From contig NZ_JAYEZO010000001.1 in the NCBI RefSeq assembly GCF_037031285.1, positions 1-64,000 on the forward strand: a stretch of DNA of 64,000 nucleotides, in the 5' to 3' direction. Origin of the DNA: Halobellus sp. LT62. Lineage in GTDB: Archaea; Halobacteriota; Halobacteria; Halobacteriales; Haloferacaceae. Of the stretch, positions 378 through 63,703 are shown one piece after another. The notes beneath the pieces are model-generated. The model saw only the letters and a list, made by a program, of their open reading frames with translations, was not told the origin of the DNA and ran no database searches. Position numbers and translations under genes: made by a program. Within the stretch, counting starts at the first letter, position 1; the number at the start of each line of letters is the position of its first letter.

Positions 378-1529
378 TCACGCCGCGATCTCGACGCCGG
401 TGATCTCGAATCTGGCACCGCCGCTCTCGCTTTCGGTCACCGAAACCGTCCACCCGTGCGCTTCCGCGAGCTGTTTCACGATCGAGAGGCCGTAGCCGGT
501 TCCGTCTTCTCGCGTCGAGTACCCGTGTTCGAAGATCGAATCGCCGATGCTGTCGGGAACGCCCGGGCCGTCGTCGGCGACGTAGAATCCCGGTCCGTGG
601 TCGAGATGCCCGACGCTGACAGTCACCCCTGCCGTCGCGCCGTCTTCCGGGACGCCGTTCTCTCCGGGGTTCCCCTGAGTTTGCGAAGGAGAGCTCGTAG
701 AGCCGTGCTCTACGGCGTCCGTCTGAGCCTGCGAAGACGGGCTCGTGGAACCGTGTTCCACGGCGTTCCGAAAGAGGTTCTCGAACAGCTCTTCTAACCG
801 GCTTTTGTCGGCGGTGATTGTTTCGAGACCGGATTCGACGCGCAACGTGGCCGCCCCGGTTTCGACGTTGTTCCACGCGTCTCGAACGGTGGCTTCGAGA
901 TCAACGGGTTCGGTTTCGCCGATGAAGCGCCCCTGTCGCGAGAGTGCCAAGACGTCGTCGACGAGTCGGTCGATCCGATCGAGTGCTTCGAGGACCTGCT
1001 CCAACTCGGGCGTCTCGTCCCGTTTGCTCGCCAGTTCGGTGTACCCACGCGCCACCGACAGCGGATTTCGAATGTCGTGTGCGAGGATGTCTGCGAACTC
1101 GTCGAGTCGCTCTTTCTGATCTCGGAGTTCGTCCTCGCGCTGCCGGCGTTCCGTGATATCACGGATGACCCCGGTGAAGTACTGTTCGCCGCCGTGGGTG
1201 TGCTCTCGGAGGCTGATCAGCGTCGGCACCTCGTGGCCGTTTTTGTGTAATGCCGGCAGTTCGACGCCCTCCCAGTCGATGTTTCGGGATCCGGTTTCGA
1301 CGTAGGTCGCCAGCGCAGCGCCGTGGACCGGCCGTAATCGCTCCGGGATGATCTTCATTTTCGAGCTACCGATCAGTTCCTCGGGTGAATACCCAAGGAT
1401 CTCTTCGATAGCGGAGTTGGCGTACACGATCGTACTCTCCGAATCGATCGTCAGCATTCCCTCCGCGGAACTCTCGACCAGCGTTTGGTAGAACTCGTCA
1501 GGACCGGCTGGGAGCGCGCTCGGTTCCAT
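378..1529 (-). CDS. PAS-domain sensor histidine kinase
   Basis: A soluble 383-residue kinase. An N-terminal PAS domain (about residues 10-130, ending in the typical DITERR) is followed by HisKA with the H-box around His151 (LAHDIRNPL) and an HATPase_c domain with N-box NLFRNAVEH, G1 box DDGPGVPD and G2 box GTGYGLSIV. No membrane segment is seen, so it probably senses a cytoplasmic ligand. I choose the ATG at 1529; a GTG at 1568 would overlap the AT-rich promoter AATAAGTGTTTA. Between the N-box and the G1 box lies a tandem repeat that duplicates the sequence AVEHGSTS (see 669-764). No response regulator is adjacent. Confidence 0.88.
   Translation of the reverse strand: MEPSALPAGPDEFYQTLVESSAEGMLTIDSESTIVYANSAIEEILGYSPEELIGSSKMKIIPERLRPVHGAALATYVETGSRNIDWEGVELPALHKNGHEVPTLISLREHTHGGEQYFTGVIRDITERRQREDELRDQKERLDEFADILAHDIRNPLSVARGYTELASKRDETPELEQVLEALDRIDRLVDDVLALSRQGRFIGETEPVDLEATVRDAWNNVETGAATLRVESGLETITADKSRLEELFENLFRNAVEHGSTSPSSQAQTDAVEHGSTSSPSQTQGNPGENGVPEDGATAGVTVSVGHLDHGPGFYVADDGPGVPDSIGDSIFEHGYSTREDGTGYGLSIVKQLAEAHGWTVSVTESESGGARFEITGVEIAA
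669..764 (-). repeat. Two 48-bp in-frame repeats in the kinase ATPase domain, with hairpin-forming arms
   Basis: Units at 717-764 and 669-716 (reading order on the - strand) encode AVEHGSTSPSSQAQTD and a close variant. The first has arms GTGGAAC/GTTCCAC, the second GTAGAGC/GCTCTAC, each around ACG. A second stem CCGTCT/AGACGG in unit one becomes CTCCT/AGGGG in unit two, which still pairs with one G-U. The same two unit types occur in the unrelated-locus kinase at 32713-32829. Confidence 0.9.
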
Positions 1530-1708
1530 TCCGTCTCTCTGCTGGCTACGAACCCGACCCGTAAACACTTATTGCCAACTGACGGACAGCACCTCGTCGT
1601 ATTCGCCGAATGGGGCAATGAAGTCCGCAGAAGCGTGTCGACGTACCACGGTATCGCGCGTCCGTGAAAACGGTAACCGTTATACGCCACGTGATCAAAT
1701 TCGGGGAT

Positions 1709-5538: not shown

Positions 5539-6531
5539 TCACCACTCCAATGAACCGCCGCTCTGGTACTCGGTCACCTGCGTCTCGAAGAAGTTCTTCT
5601 CCTTGTTCAGGTCGACGGCCTCGCTCATCCACGGGAAGGGGTTGTCGGTGCCGTAGCTCTCGTCGAGGTCCAGCTGTCCGAGCCGACGGTCGGCGACGTG
5701 CTCGACGTACTCGACGAACTGCTCGGGACCCATCCCGAGGACGTCCTCGGGGCAGGCCTCCCGTGCATAAGTCGCCTCCAGATCGACGGCGGTCTCGATC
5801 AACTCGCGCACCTCCGCGCCGAACTCGTCGGTCCACGCCTCGGGGTGCTCCCGGCGGATCTGGTTGATGAGGTCGACGCCGAAGCCCACGTGCAGCGACT
5901 CGTCGCGCATGATGTACTCGAACTGCTGGCCGATCCCGACCATTCGATTCCGTCGCTTCAGCGCGAGCATCATCGCGAAGCCGGCGTAGAAGAACACGCC
6001 CTCCATCACGACGTAGAAGCCGACGAGGTCCCGCAGGAGGTCGCGGACGTCTTCTGTGTCTTCCAGTCGAAATTCGGAGTCATCGATGTTCTGCGTGAGA
6101 TCGACGACGAACTCGTCCTTCTCGCGGATCGAGGGGATGCGGTCGTACATCCCGTAGAGGTACTCCGGCTCGAACCCCAGCGAGTCACAGCAGTAGATGA
6201 ACGTGTCCGTGTGGATCGCCTCCTCGTAGGCCTGTCGCAGGAGGTACTGACGGCACTCCGGCGCGGTGACGTACTCGTAGATCGCGAGCACGATGTTGTT
6301 CGCCGTCAGCGACTCCGCCGTCGAGAAGAACCCGAGGTTCCACTCGACGAGCTGTCGCTCCGAGTCGGTGAGGTCGTCGCCGTTCCACTGGGTGATGTCC
6401 TCCTGCATCGGGATCTCCTCGGGAACCCAGTTGTTGGCGACGCCGTCGCGGTAGTACTCGCGGGCCCAGTCGTAGTCGATCGGCAGGATCTTGTTCGGAT
6501 CGTGTTCGGCGTCGTGGTTGAGTAGTGGCAT
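5539..6531 (-). CDS. nrdB: Ribonucleotide reductase small subunit, class Ic-like (radical Tyr replaced by Phe)
   Basis: A 330-residue ferritin-like R2 protein that supplies the oxidising equivalent to NrdA for ribonucleotide reduction. Metal ligands are visible: Glu73 (STAESLTANN), Glu104 and His107 (YEEAIHTDTF), Glu177 (VMEGVFF), Glu211 and His214 (DESLHVGFG). At the position four residues after His107, where class Ia/Ib enzymes have the radical-bearing Tyr, there is Phe111. This pattern defines class Ic enzymes with a Mn/Fe cofactor, as in Chlamydia. It is the last gene of nrdR-nrdA-nrdB; 11 nt separate it from nrdA. Confidence 0.93.
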   Translation of the reverse strand: MPLLNHDAEHDPNKILPIDYDWAREYYRDGVANNWVPEEIPMQEDITQWNGDDLTDSERQLVEWNLGFFSTAESLTANNIVLAIYEYVTAPECRQYLLRQAYEEAIHTDTFIYCCDSLGFEPEYLYGMYDRIPSIREKDEFVVDLTQNIDDSEFRLEDTEDVRDLLRDLVGFYVVMEGVFFYAGFAMMLALKRRNRMVGIGQQFEYIMRDESLHVGFGVDLINQIRREHPEAWTDEFGAEVRELIETAVDLEATYAREACPEDVLGMGPEQFVEYVEHVADRRLGQLDLDESYGTDNPFPWMSEAVDLNKEKNFFETQVTEYQSGGSLEW

Positions 6532-30096: not shown

Positions 30097-33078
30097 ATGA
30101 CAGACACCGCTGATTCGATCGACGTCCTCCACGTCGACGACGACGGCGCGTTCGCCGAACTGGCGGCGACCTTCCTCGAACGCGTCGCGCCGACGCTCTC
30201 GGTCCGGTCAGCGACGAGCGTCGAGGCGGGCCAAACGCTCCTCTCCGAGCACGACGTCGACTGCGTCGTCTCCGACTACGATATGCCGGATCGCAGCGGC
30301 ATCGAGTTCCTCGAATCCGTTCGTGAGACGCACCCGAACCTGCCGTTCATCCTCTACACCGGAAAAGGGTCCGAAGAGGTCGCAAGCGAGGCGATCTCCG
30401 CCGGTGTGACCGACTACCTTCAGAAGGGAATGGGCTCCGAACAGTACGAACTCCTCGCGAACCGTATCGTCAACGCCGTCGATGCCCATCAGTCTCGTCA
30501 GTTGTTATCGGAACGGACCCGGCGGCTGGAGACGCTCATCGACACGCTCCCGGGGATGGTCTACCGATGCCGGAACGAACCCACGTGGCCGATGGAAACC
30601 GTCGAAGGGGAAGTCGAGTCGCTCACCGGCTACGTGGCAGACGAACTGGAGCGCAACGAGGTGAAGTGGGGCGCGGACCTCATCCACCCCGACGACAGAG
30701 AACAGACGTGGGCGGCCGTTCAGGAGGGGCTCTCGACGGACCGCACGTTCGAGATCACCTATCGGATCCGGACTCGCGACGGGCGCACGCGGTGGGTGTG
30801 GGAACGTGGTCGCGGCGTGTACGACGGGAGCGAACTGATCGCGCTCGAAGGGTTCATCACCGATATCACAGAGCGGAAGGAGCGCGAAGCGCGCCTCGAA
30901 CGGACGTCGGCTCGAATGGAGGCGCTGCTGGAAAACTCCCCGGATATGATCGATACCCACACTGGCGACGGAACGATCGTTGAGGTGAACCAACGGTTCT
31001 GCGACGTCTTCGGGCAGACCAAAGACGCGTTGATCGGCAGGAAAGTGTGGGAAATCGATCGCGAGAGCGACCCCGAGGAACTCCGCGAAATATGGGACGG
31101 AATGGACGTCGGCGACCGCTTCGAAATCAGGACCTCGTTCCGCCGCGTGGACGGCGAGAGCTTCCCGGTGAAAGTTCATCTGACTCGCATCCCCGCGGAG
31201 GGACCGGAGCGGCGGTTCCTCGTCATCTCCCGGGACATCTCAGCGCGGGTCGAACGCGAGGAGGAACTGCGGCGCTACGAGCGGATGGTGAATACGATGC
31301 AGGAGGCCGCCTGTATCTACGACGAAGACGGCCGGTTCGTGGTCGTCAACGAGACGCTCGGCGAGATCTACGGAACGTCGCCCGAGGCGCTCGAAGGTCG
31401 GAAGAGCGATCTCATCGCCGACATCCGAGACGCGGAAGACGGAGATCCCTACCGCGAACTCCTCGGCGGCCAGCGCGACGAGCTCCGCGGCGAGGCCGAA
31501 CTGACGTTCTCCGACTACGGTTCGGTGATTATCGAATACCGGTTGACGCCGCTCGTCGTCGACGGGACCATCGAGGGAGTTGTGGGCGTGACTCGCGAGA
31601 TAACCGACCGTCGGGAGAGCGAACGCCGATTCGAGCGGATGCACGAACTGCTCGACCGAACCGAGGGTATCGCCGATGTCGGCGGCTGGGAGCTCGATCC
31701 CGACACCGACGAGGTCTTTTGGACCGAGAACCTCTACGCGCTGATCGGCGTCGACGACGACTTCGAGCCCTCGCTCGAGGACCTCCTCGACGCGCACGGG
31801 GAGGATCGCGAACTCGTCGCCGACGCGGTGGAAACCGCGCTCGAACGAGGCGAACCCTTCGACGTCGAGGTCCGTTTCAACCGACAGGACGGCGAAACCC
31901 GTTGGCTTCGCGTTCAGGGCGTTCCGACGGTCGAAGACGGGGAGGTCGTGACGCTCCGCGGCGCAATCCAAGACGTCACCGAACAGAAAGCGCGGGAACG
32001 CGATCTCGATCGGGCCCGCAGACAGGCCGACGAATTGTTCCACGGGATGAACGACTCCGCGTGGGTGATCGGCCTCGACGAGACGTTCCAAGCGGTCAAC
32101 GACGCTGCCGTGGAGACGCTCGGGTACACCCGAAACGAACTGCTCTCGATGGGGCCGCACGACATCGACGACGGTCTCGACGACGGCAAGATCACGGAAC
32201 TGATCCGAGAGGTGCCGACGGACGCGACGCAGGTCTTCGAGACGGTTCACGTGACGAAAGACGGCGACCGAATCCCCGTCGAGATCAGCTCCAGTTTGAT
32301 CTCTTACGACGGGGAGACGATGGTGTTGAGCATCGCGCGCGACATCTCCGATCGGAAGAAACGGGAACGACAGCTGGCCGAGTTCGCGTCGGTCGTGAGC
32401 CACGATCTCCGGAACCCCCTCAACGTTGCACAGGGGCGACTGGAACTCGCCCGCGAGGAGTGTGACAACGAGCACCTCTCGGACGTCGCGCGAACGCACG
32501 AGCGGATGAACGAGCTGATCGACGACCTCCTGACGCTCGCACAGAGCGGGGCCCGCGCGCTCGAACCGGAACCGATCGAATTGGGGGGCTTCGTCGGAAC
32601 CTGCTGGCGGAACGTCGCCACCGCGGACGCCACCATCGAGGCGGCGACCGAGGGGACGGTCCGCGCCGACCGGACCCGCCTTCAACAGCTCTTCGAGAAC
32701 CTGTTCCGCAACGCCGTAGAGCACGGCTCTACGAGCCCTCCTTCGCAAACTCAGGAGGACGCCGTGGAACACGGTTCCACGAGCCCGTCTTCGCAGGCTC
32801 AGACGGACGCCGTAGAGCACGATAGTAGCGATCTCACAATTCGCGTCGGAGTGCTGGACGACGGCGAGGGCTTCTACGTCGAGGACGACGGTTCGGGCAT
32901 CCCGGCCGACGATCGCGACGAGGTGTTCGAGATGGGATACTCGACCGCGCGGGAGGGAACCGGATTCGGACTGAACATCGTCGAACAGGTCGTCGAGGAG
33001 CACGACTGGCGCGTCGTCGTCACCGAGAGCGCCTCGGGCGGAGCCCGATTCGAGATACGCGGCGTCGAGTTCGAGTGA
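30097..33078 (+). CDS. REC-multi-PAS sensor histidine kinase
   Basis: A 993-residue soluble hybrid kinase. Domain order: N-terminal receiver (1-125; phosphoacceptor Asp60 in VSDYDMPD, Lys in LYTGKGS), about five PAS/PAC domains (roughly 140-755, each ending in DITER/DISAR-like turns), HisKA with His769 (VVSHDLRNPL), and HATPase_c with N-box NLFRNAVEHG, G1 DDGSGIPADD and G2 GTGFGLNIV. The N-terminal receiver suggests input from another kinase. Between N-box and G1 box lie two and a half copies of the 48-bp repeat also present in the first kinase. Confidence 0.9.
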   Translation: MTDTADSIDVLHVDDDGAFAELAATFLERVAPTLSVRSATSVEAGQTLLSEHDVDCVVSDYDMPDRSGIEFLESVRETHPNLPFILYTGKGSEEVASEAISAGVTDYLQKGMGSEQYELLANRIVNAVDAHQSRQLLSERTRRLETLIDTLPGMVYRCRNEPTWPMETVEGEVESLTGYVADELERNEVKWGADLIHPDDREQTWAAVQEGLSTDRTFEITYRIRTRDGRTRWVWERGRGVYDGSELIALEGFITDITERKEREARLERTSARMEALLENSPDMIDTHTGDGTIVEVNQRFCDVFGQTKDALIGRKVWEIDRESDPEELREIWDGMDVGDRFEIRTSFRRVDGESFPVKVHLTRIPAEGPERRFLVISRDISARVEREEELRRYERMVNTMQEAACIYDEDGRFVVVNETLGEIYGTSPEALEGRKSDLIADIRDAEDGDPYRELLGGQRDELRGEAELTFSDYGSVIIEYRLTPLVVDGTIEGVVGVTREITDRRESERRFERMHELLDRTEGIADVGGWELDPDTDEVFWTENLYALIGVDDDFEPSLEDLLDAHGEDRELVADAVETALERGEPFDVEVRFNRQDGETRWLRVQGVPTVEDGEVVTLRGAIQDVTEQKARERDLDRARRQADELFHGMNDSAWVIGLDETFQAVNDAAVETLGYTRNELLSMGPHDIDDGLDDGKITELIREVPTDATQVFETVHVTKDGDRIPVEISSSLISYDGETMVLSIARDISDRKKRERQLAEFASVVSHDLRNPLNVAQGRLELAREECDNEHLSDVARTHERMNELIDDLLTLAQSGARALEPEPIELGGFVGTCWRNVATADATIEAATEGTVRADRTRLQQLFENLFRNAVEHGSTSPPSQTQEDAVEHGSTSPSSQAQTDAVEHDSSDLTIRVGVLDDGEGFYVEDDGSGIPADDRDEVFEMGYSTAREGTGFGLNIVEQVVEEHDWRVVVTESASGGARFEIRGVEFE
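32713..32829 (+). repeat. Tandem 48-bp repeats with covarying hairpin arms inside a kinase gene
   Basis: Units at 32713-32760 and 32761-32808 plus a partial third (32809-32829). Unit one has arms GTAGAGC/GCTCTAC and CCTCCT/AGGAGG; unit two has GTGGAAC/GTTCCAC and CCGTCT/AGACGG. Loops are ACG and TCGCAAACTC or TCGCAGGCTC. Four base pairs differ between units and all four differences are compensated. The units keep the reading frame and duplicate AVEHGSTSP. Confidence 0.92.
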
Positions 33079-33707: not shown

Positions 33708-33789
33708 ATAGTAGCGTTTGCAAGTCTTCACTCACGCGATCACACGCTGTCGTACGGTCGGATGAGCAATTAGTTGCAAACGCTACTAT
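33708..33789. mobile_element. MITE copy B
   Basis: 82-bp element with perfect 16-bp terminal inverted repeats: ATAGTAGCGTTTGCAA (33708-33723) and its complement (33774-33789). The interior contains AGTCTTCACTCAC near the left end. It is homologous to, and inverted relative to, copy C at 35813-35896. No coding capacity. Confidence 0.85.
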
Positions 33790-33845: not shown

Positions 33846-35786
33846 ATGGCGAGCGACGCTGATGACGGTCTATCGCCCTCCACGACGAGCAACCCCGTTT
33901 GGGACCTCTACGGCCGGTACAGCGGGAAGAACCTCAGGTTCGCCCTACTCGGGGCCGGTAACACGATCATCGGACGGATTCTCGGTCTCGTCCCCGCGTT
34001 CATCATCGGGCTCGCCGTCGACGCGATCTTCCTGAACCAACGACCGTATCGGCTCCCCGGAATCCCCGCGTCGTGGGTTCCCGCTTCGTCCGCGGAGCAG
34101 CTTTGGTTCTCGATCGGCCTGTTGCTCGCGGCGACTGTCCTCGGTGCGGTCGCCTCGTGGTTCGAAGACTGGGGCTGGAGCGTCTTTGCCCAACGCATCC
34201 AACACGAGCTGCGAATCGACGCGTACGCCCGAATGCAGCGACTCGATCTCGCGTACTTCACCGGTCAGCGGACCGGCGAGCTGATGAGCATTCTCAACAA
34301 CGACGTGAACGCGTTAGAAACGTTTCTCGAAGACGGGCTGAGTTCGATTTTCTGGGTCGCTGCCACGTTCGTTGGTATCGGGGCGATCCTCGTTTCGTTG
34401 AACCAACCTTTGGCTCTCGTCACGCTATTGCCAGTCCCGTTTTTGGCCGCGTTCACGCTGGTTTTCACACGGGTAATTGAACCGCGATACCTCCAAATCC
34501 GCGGGGAGATCAGCGATCTGAACGCGCGGTTCGAGAACAACATCAGCGGGATCGAAGCGATCAAAACCGAGCACGCGGAGGCGTACGAAGAGGGGCGTGT
34601 CGAAACCGCATCACGGGGGTATTTGAACGCGAACCTCGACGCCGTTCGGATCCAGATCACGTACTTCCCGGGATTGACGCTCATCGCCGGCGTTGGATTT
34701 GCGCTCACGTTCCTCGTCGGTGGGTTTTGGGTGCTCACCGGGCCGCCCTTCGGATTGACTGCCGCCTTGACCCCCGGCGAATTCATTACGTTCGTCATCT
34801 ACGCGCAGCAGTACGTCTGGCCCATTATTCAGTTCGGAAGCGTCGTCGATGATTACGAGCGCGCGAAAGCCGCAGGCACGCGGGTTTCACGACTACTACG
34901 ACTAGAGCCGTCCGTACGCGACGTCACCGATGCTGATCCGCTTACAGTTACCGATGGCCGTGTCGAGTACGACGCCGTCTCGTTTGGGTACGGCGACGAC
35001 GAAATCATCTCGGAGGTGTCGTTCACCGCTGAGGGTGGCGAAACAATCGGAATCGTTGGCCCCACCGGAGCTGGCAAATCGACCCTCCTGAAACTGCTCC
35101 CACGGCTTTACGACGTCGACGAGGGATCGATCCGCATTGACGGCCAAGCGGTCCATACCGTCCAGCTCGAAAGTCTTCGACGGGCCCTCGGGTACGTCAG
35201 TCAAGAGCCGATGCTGTTCTACGGTACGGTGTCTGAAAACATCAGATACGGCAGCTTCGAGGCCACCGACGACGAAATCCGGCAGGCCGCCCGGCGCGCC
35301 CGAGCGCACGAGTTCATCGAAAACCTTCCCAACGGGTATGACACGCTGGTCGGTGAGCGCGGGGTCAAACTCTCAGGCGGGCAGCGACAACGGGTCGCCA
35401 TCGCTCGAACGATTCTCAAAGATCCCGAGATACTCGTCTTAGACGAGGCAACCAGCCACGTCGACACCGAGACCGAAGCGCTCATCCAGCAAAGCCTCGC
35501 CGAGTTCGCCCGCGATCGCACGACGTTCGTCATCGCACACCGCCTTTCGACAGTGCGCCGTGCCGACCGGATCCTCGTCTTAGACGACGGGCGACTCGTC
35601 GAATACGGGACTCACGACGAACTGCTCGCCGCGGACGGGTTGTACGCCAACTTCTGGCGCGTCCAAGCGGGCGATATCGAGTCGCTCCCACAGGATTTCC
35701 TCGACCGGGCTCGATGTCGACAAGACTCACTCCGACAGCGTGATGAAGACGACCCAGACCGCCTCCCGCGCTGGAGTGATTGGTGA
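33846..35786 (+). CDS. ABC-type exporter (transmembrane domain fused to ATPase)
   Basis: A 646-residue half-transporter of the MsbA/multidrug type. The N-terminal part has six transmembrane segments (about residues 30-330), including intracellular loop DLAYFTGQRTGELMSILNND. The ATPase domain has Walker A GPTGAGKST, signature [14 protein letters not shown], Walker B ILVLDEATSHVD and H-loop FVIAHRLSTV. It presumably acts as a homodimer exporting lipids, peptides or drugs. The gene is bracketed by inverted MITEs, so it may be mobile. Third-base composition is slightly less GC-rich than in neighbouring core genes. Confidence 0.9.
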   Translation: MASDADDGLSPSTTSNPVWDLYGRYSGKNLRFALLGAGNTIIGRILGLVPAFIIGLAVDAIFLNQRPYRLPGIPASWVPASSAEQLWFSIGLLLAATVLGAVASWFEDWGWSVFAQRIQHELRIDAYARMQRLDLAYFTGQRTGELMSILNNDVNALETFLEDGLSSIFWVAATFVGIGAILVSLNQPLALVTLLPVPFLAAFTLVFTRVIEPRYLQIRGEISDLNARFENNISGIEAIKTEHAEAYEEGRVETASRGYLNANLDAVRIQITYFPGLTLIAGVGFALTFLVGGFWVLTGPPFGLTAALTPGEFITFVIYAQQYVWPIIQFGSVVDDYERAKAAGTRVSRLLRLEPSVRDVTDADPLTVTDGRVEYDAVSFGYGDDEIISEVSFTAEGGETIGIVGPTGAGKSTLLKLLPRLYDVDEGSIRIDGQAVHTVQLESLRRALGYVSQEPMLFYGTVSENIRYGSFEATDDEIRQAARRARAHEFIENLPNGYDTLVGERGVKLSGGQRQRVAIARTILKDPEILVLDEATSHVDTETEALIQQSLAEFARDRTTFVIAHRLSTVRRADRILVLDDGRLVEYGTHDELLAADGLYANFWRVQAGDIESLPQDFLDRARCRQDSLRQRDEDDPDRLPRWSDW

Positions 35787-63106: not shown

Positions 63107-63703
63107 ATGGCTGAATTCAAGGTCGTCGTCTCCGACGGGACCGGACACACAGAGCAGTTCGAGGTCGACGGACAGGACGCGAACCGATTCATCGGGCGCG
63201 AGCTCGGCGACGAGGTCGACGGCGGTGCCGTCGGCCTCGACGGGCAGGCGCTGGAACTCACCGGCGGCTCCGACGAGGCGGGCCGTCCGATGCGCGCCGA
63301 CGTCGCCGGCGCGAACCTAAAGGAGCTCCTCCTCGAGGGCGGCGTGGGCTACAAGCCCTCGCGTGACGGCGAGCGCAAGCGGGTGACGGTCCGCGGCCGA
63401 CAGATAACCGACGCCACCGCGCAGGTCAACGCATCGCTCGTCGACGGCACGATCGCCGGCGACGACGAAGACGATGCGGTCGAAGAGGACGAAGCGGGCG
63501 AGGACGAGGCTGAGACGGATGCAGACGAAGCCGGCGAACCTGAAGCCGACGAGGAAGACGCCGAGGCGGACGACGACGAAGAAGCTGCCGACGCGGACGA
63601 CGATGAAGAAGCTGCCGACGCGGACGACGATGAAGAAGCTGCCGACGCGGACGACGATGAAGAAGCTGCCGACGCGGACGGCGACGAGGACGACGAAGAG
63701 TAA
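63107..63703 (+). CDS. rps6e: 30S ribosomal protein S6e with long acidic repeat tail
   Basis: A 198-residue protein. Residues 1-120 are canonical archaeal S6e ([59 protein letters not shown]). The remaining about 80 residues are acidic, with four tandem EEAADADDD units coded by 27-bp DNA repeats. Haloarchaeal S6e is usually near 130 residues, so the tail is exceptional. TATA-like TTTTTATC at about 63076-63084 suggests a leaderless message. Confidence 0.92.
63578..63676 (+). repeat. 27-bp tandem repeat in rps6e
   Basis: Units of 27 bp begin at 63578, 63605, 63632 and 63659 (last partial), each starting GAAGAAGCTGCCGACGCG. The units are essentially identical at the DNA level, indicating recent slippage expansion. 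Confidence 0.9.

Follow-up and report, generated by a model that had tools for sequence, protein, structure and literature searches.

The window, a stretch of 64,000 nucleotides from Halobellus sp. LT62, contains two histidine kinase genes that carry a short palindromic repeat at the same position, the N-box. The relevant features are listed below.

30097 to 33078, plus strand: histidine kinase gene carrying the array, with receiver, PAS domains, HisKA and HATPase_c (993 aa)
32710 to 32712, plus strand: N-box Asn codon AAC, with the insertion point directly 3' in the register used
32713 to 32760, plus strand: unit A, 48 nt, made up of GCC, hairpin 1 (32716-32732), GAGC, hairpin 2 (32737-32758) and AC
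32761 to 32808, plus strand: unit B, 48 nt, with hairpin 1 at 32764-32780 and hairpin 2 at 32785-32806
32809 to 32820, plus strand: GCC GTA GAG CAC (AVEH) past the last unit, a partial third repeat
378 to 1568, minus strand: second histidine kinase gene, which carries the element at the corresponding N-box position
717 to 764, minus strand: copy of unit B in the second kinase, its 43-nt core identical to unit B of the first gene and its flanks unrelated
669 to 716, minus strand: copy of unit A in the second kinase, with hairpin 2 as TCTCCT/AGGGGA

Units A and B were confirmed in sequence and position as given in the original prediction. The stems are GTAGAGC-ACG-GCTCTAC and CCTCCT-loop-AGGAGG in unit A, where the last G of hairpin 2 is also the G of the closing GAC, and GTGGAAC-ACG-GTTCCAC and CCGTCT-loop-AGACGG in unit B. 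Across the two stems, four base pairs differ between the units, with all eight substitutions compensated, and the remaining two differences fall in the 10-nt loop. The four stem-1 substitutions are synonymous (GTA/GTG, GAG/GAA, GGC/GGT, and TCT/TCC), and selection on the protein cannot yield the pairing, as had been argued; the structure is held while the sequence changes. A partial third copy, ACGCCGTAGAGCACG, follows (32807-32821), and its AVEH corresponds to the native N-box sequence in homologues without the insert. The array had been placed exactly after the N-box Asn. It does lie at the N-box, but because AVEH recurs at both ends of the insert, this is only one of several equivalent placements. 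In the second kinase, both units also follow the gene's own N-box, in reversed order compared to the first gene, and the unit A copy has an additional compensated pair (C-G to T-A) as well as one T.G. The whole genome of the window organism contains eight units. Elsewhere in the window, we noted a 27-bp coding tandem repeat in about five copies (63547-63687) and a long imperfect intergenic palindrome (33708-33789), whose 39-nt arms are 74% complementary and which lies upstream of the ABC transporter gene at 33846.

The protein encoded by the first gene has HisKA and HATPase_c domains with an N-box, and the insert lies past the N-box helix. In a structure prediction, the HisKA-HATPase part reached a mean pLDDT of 83, and the insert appeared as a low-confidence loop (pLDDT ~48-57 at residues 121-150) spanning from the N-box helix, which ends at residue 115, to a strand starting at residue 152. 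The model suggests that the insert is a disordered loop, and since it is predicted as such, it is probably tolerated by the kinase.

A set of 381 units was collected. The two freely varying pairs of stem 1 were complementary in 343/381 and 349/381 units (shuffles, 161±9 and 191±10), and all four bases occurred at stem-1 position 3, with the partner matching. In the commonest type, where stem 2 has 6-bp arms round the conserved loop TCGCAnnCTC, the inner three pairs of that stem matched in 152, 140, and 135 of 166 units (shuffles, 80, 54, and 61). When column pairs were ranked by APC-corrected mutual information among 159 type-P units aligned without gaps, with all other column pairs serving as background for the relatedness of the units, the top five of 1225 were stem pairs, and the sixth, columns 5-23, was an unpredicted eighth base pair lengthening stem 1. 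Sliding the partner column by 1-3 positions lowered the pairing from 94% to 16-42%. Furthermore, in 115 comparisons of adjacent units, 142 changes of stem-1 pairs affected both sides with pairing intact in each unit, compared with 34 of other kinds. The compensation therefore lies above background, and the possibility that the units are clonal copies of only two fixed variants was likewise excluded. In kinase arrays, the GTN codon of the left arm recurred in the next copy downstream in only 64/197 cases, neighbours tending to differ.

Such pairing could be a by-product of codon use if the repeat were selected at the protein level to tune kinase activity, and the copies are indeed always in frame and mostly at one protein position. 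However, the covarying changes of stem 1 are silent, codon bias accounts for only 161 and 191 of the 381 pairs, the encoded peptides are highly diverse, and the loop is predicted to be disordered; we give this reading almost no credence. The original prediction had instead offered a DNA or RNA structure maintained within the kinase gene. A functional RNA hairpin pair in the kinase mRNA (a processing site, a small RNA or translation control) would fit the strong stem covariation, and single-strand folding of the two units was better than that of shuffled sequences (z of -2.0 to -3.5 with DNA parameters). An RNA helix under selection should favor G.U pairs, yet A.C mismatches of the sense strand (23 in stem 1 and 42 in stem 2) were no rarer than G.U (18 and 13, respectively). 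We regard these counts as moderate evidence against selection on RNA, because codon constraint confounds the stem-2 count. No significant Rfam match was obtained, the nearest congeneric kinases do not have the element, and the same element occurs in many unrelated genes and in apparently non-coding places, as described below. A structure serving the kinase gene is not supported by these findings, and the mRNA hairpin explanation is very improbable.

The element consists of RCC, hairpin 1 (a 7-8 bp stem with a 3-nt loop), a linker of four or five bases (GAGC/AGGC, often with A), hairpin 2 (17-23 nt), and RAC. Tandem units are spaced by 45, 48 or 51 nt, and each adds 15-17 residues to the host protein. 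Insertion follows an xAC codon, in a single orientation and reading frame. A 21-nt stem-1 pattern had a match in 178/392 haloarchaeal genomes (~45%), representing 49/95 genera, while the reversed control gave 1 match. With a stricter pattern and one genome per bacterial or archaeal species, at least 120 records were found, all those listed being haloarchaeal. Relatives were present on five haloarchaeal plasmids, in three cases within a metallo-hydrolase gene. There was no match in a phage collection, and of 13 viral-contig matches to the short pattern, those inspected had no flanking motif, lay in non-coding or unrelated frames, and appear to be chance.

Approximately 87% of the units lie directly past the N-box Asn of histidine kinases, and the repeat contains the N-box AVEH, as would be expected if the units had originated and multiplied solely within kinases, through N-box duplication templated by hairpins and gene conversion between paralogues. 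The spacings of 45, 48, and 51 nt point to tandem dynamics, and two kinases on C2 of the window organism's genome have a unit and the entire downstream flank in common, showing that recombination between paralogues spreads copies too. Against a purely kinase-bound history stand the copies with empty sites in many non-kinase genes, as well as the identical 43-nt cores with unrelated flanks, and the reversed order of the units, in the two genes of the window. As a sole cause, it is largely refuted by the non-kinase insertions, and we consider it unlikely.

In-frame copies were found in at least 15 unrelated non-kinase genes, with hosts including inositol monophosphatase, ThiI, IleRS, a rhodanese-lactamase protein, a release-factor-like protein, a Mo-co oxidoreductase, an M32 peptidase, a PhoU-TrkA protein, an amine oxidase, an acyl-CoA dehydrogenase, transcription factor S, and a corrin methyltransferase. 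The orientation and reading frame of the element were identical in every non-kinase host gene. In eight of these genes, a conserved domain continues on both sides of the insert, the interrupted Pfam domains being Inositol_P, THUMP of ThiI, tRNA-synt_1, Lactamase_B, Mo-co dimer, Peptidase_M32, Acyl-CoA_dh_M, and Amino_oxidase. Empty sites were observed for transcription factor S (four congeners; insert, +51 nt), acyl-CoA dehydrogenase (shown in two congeners; +51 nt), the corrin methyltransferase (four congeners; +48 nt), and the window kinase (five congeners with 72-79% identity over the matched part; 96 nt, two units). Other reading frames were considered and rejected: in ten alternative or uncertain ORFs, the only Pfam matches were to one kinase near an array whose frame shifts and to one gene whose domain lies downstream of the element. 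The array at locus L207 (~5855-5950, minus strand) lies close to a receiver domain and is followed by a frame shift before the PAS-HisKA-HATPase part, possibly reflecting gene damage by the element.

The junctions (marked by slashes) can commonly be placed as xAC / RCC...RAC (or RAT) / GSN, with the transcription factor S copy beginning with GTT instead of RCC. In the best cases the insertion boundaries are ambiguous by 2-4 nt, and a target-site repeat of that size is possible. A long target-site duplication was considered but is not supported, as the left arm and the downstream copy mostly have different wobble codons. Units matched better across genomes (best-match identity, 0.872) than inside a single genome (0.835), and recent bursts inside one genome are thus not evident.

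Hairpin-templated mutation, the other explanation first offered, may help to keep the arms matched. Alone, however, it cannot explain why the genes for transcription factor S, acyl-CoA dehydrogenase, and IleRS all carry one and the same two-hairpin module. A mobile palindromic coding element, which was not among the options initially put forward, explains all these observations. We therefore consider it highly probable that the 48-bp unit represents a mobile palindrome of haloarchaea that is protein-coding and non-autonomous.

When pairs of adjacent hairpins joined by this linker were sought, modules emerged whose stems are quite unlike those of the main element, for example, GAGGGATC and GTGGCGTC, and which have the linker and the end in common with it. 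This indicates that the stem sequence is largely free and that pairing is what is conserved. Two such modules were inserted in an IS605-type terminal hairpin after GAAC (L304, ~160-210; L301, ~1305-1348), where lengths other than multiples of three are allowed. A distinct repeat of two hairpins, located between genes, with conserved TCG-YCGA...GTGATGA...TCGAACCACG ends and stems that vary freely but match, was seen in several haloarchaeal genomes (G298 C1, ~566019-566070; G000 C2, ~737538-737585; L140; L159).

By analogy with IS605, PATEs, and REPs, a Y1 transposase would be the obvious candidate mobiliser. PATEs are haloarchaeal elements with terminal-only forms of 52 bp, known in Haloquadratum (PMC3119063), and the unit might be a terminal-only IS200/IS605 derivative of this type that carries a hairpin at each end, inserts after a short fixed target, and is moved in trans by a Y1 enzyme. 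Like haloarchaeal PATEs and IS605-type elements (PMC3119063), it has palindromes near both ends and no clear target duplication. Its insertions follow xAC, and the element itself ends in RAC or RAT. Unlike them, it lies mostly in coding DNA, and its hairpin sequences differ, also from the terminal hairpins near the Y1 genes that were inspected (nine Y1 loci); moreover, the target is merely ~2-3 nt. Among 12 genomes checked, no Y1 transposase (PF01797) was found in that of the window organism or in four other high-copy genomes, and Y1 was rejected as the present mobiliser in the window organism on this ground. Derivation from a PATE is thus possible but doubtful.

Rickettsia has been known to carry coding palindromes since 2000. 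The Rickettsia palindromic elements (RPEs), which are also cited in PMC2996958, are palindromic DNA lying in frame in unrelated, often housekeeping genes and are viewed as selfish coding DNA, and coding palindromes occur in Wolbachia and Methanocaldococcus as well (PMC10969869). The haloarchaeal element resembles RPEs in being a short palindrome inserted in frame in unrelated genes, with insert-free homologues in relatives (four genes). Compared by description, RPEs are ~150 bp, whereas the haloarchaeal element has 45-51 nt and two hairpins, and it is further set apart by its haloarchaeal host, its strong hot spot at the kinase N-box, and its tandem units. With CGTC-tagged REPs (PMC3733652) it shares small hairpins that are often paired, intragenic, and without a dedicated transposase, and CGTC or TGTC on the bottom strand, or GCGT then C, was found beside hairpin 2. 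Those REPs, however, have stems of 8-9 bp with loops of 4-5 nt, AT at the first two stem positions, and a CCA tail, while the element has stems of mostly 6-7 bp, loops of mostly 3 or 10 nt, and a TGC or GCTC tail; a search of the text of PMC3733652 found no haloarchaeal REP. PARCELs (PMC2996958) are likewise coding repeats with dyad symmetry, tandem arrays, and a patchy distribution, but they are 25-residue amphipathic repeats in their own ORFs, in contrast to insertions of 15-17 residues in host genes, and were not found in archaeal genomes (PMC2996958). Since the element departs from RPEs, CGTC-tagged REPs, and PATEs in at least one defining feature each, we did not file it as a member of any of these. 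In the open-licence literature, we found no description of the element, its encoded peptide or haloarchaeal kinase palindromes.

How a mobile palindrome with these properties might spread can be sketched tentatively. The element class may be defined by shape over sequence, that is, by two hairpins with near-free stems and a fixed linker and end, and be propagated by a putative hairpin-reading enzyme that prefers DNA like the element's own end, which would make sensor-kinase N-boxes its main home. New copies would arise via a hairpin, either single-stranded or cruciform, whose shape is recognised, and only palindromic copies would spread, since the hairpin shape is what would be read. The arms would drift in matched pairs, with mismatched copies either not propagated or repaired from the other arm, and old copies would decay neutrally. 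Kinases could dominate because N-box DNA, AAC GCC GTN GAR CAC, resembles the left end of the element, and also because their loop would accept extra residues and recombination between paralogues would add copies. Recognition of the hairpin form by shape would account for the matched drift, the free stem sequence, the clean ends, and the apparent neutrality of old copies.

The element explains the recurrent insertion at haloarchaeal kinase N-boxes, and it illustrates that stem covariation within a gene can signal a mobile element instead of RNA function. As this haloarchaeal family comprises several hundred copies and its empty sites are clear, the choice of target, the preference for a frame, and the dependence on hairpins become testable in principle, and such tests would be possible in genetically tractable haloarchaea.
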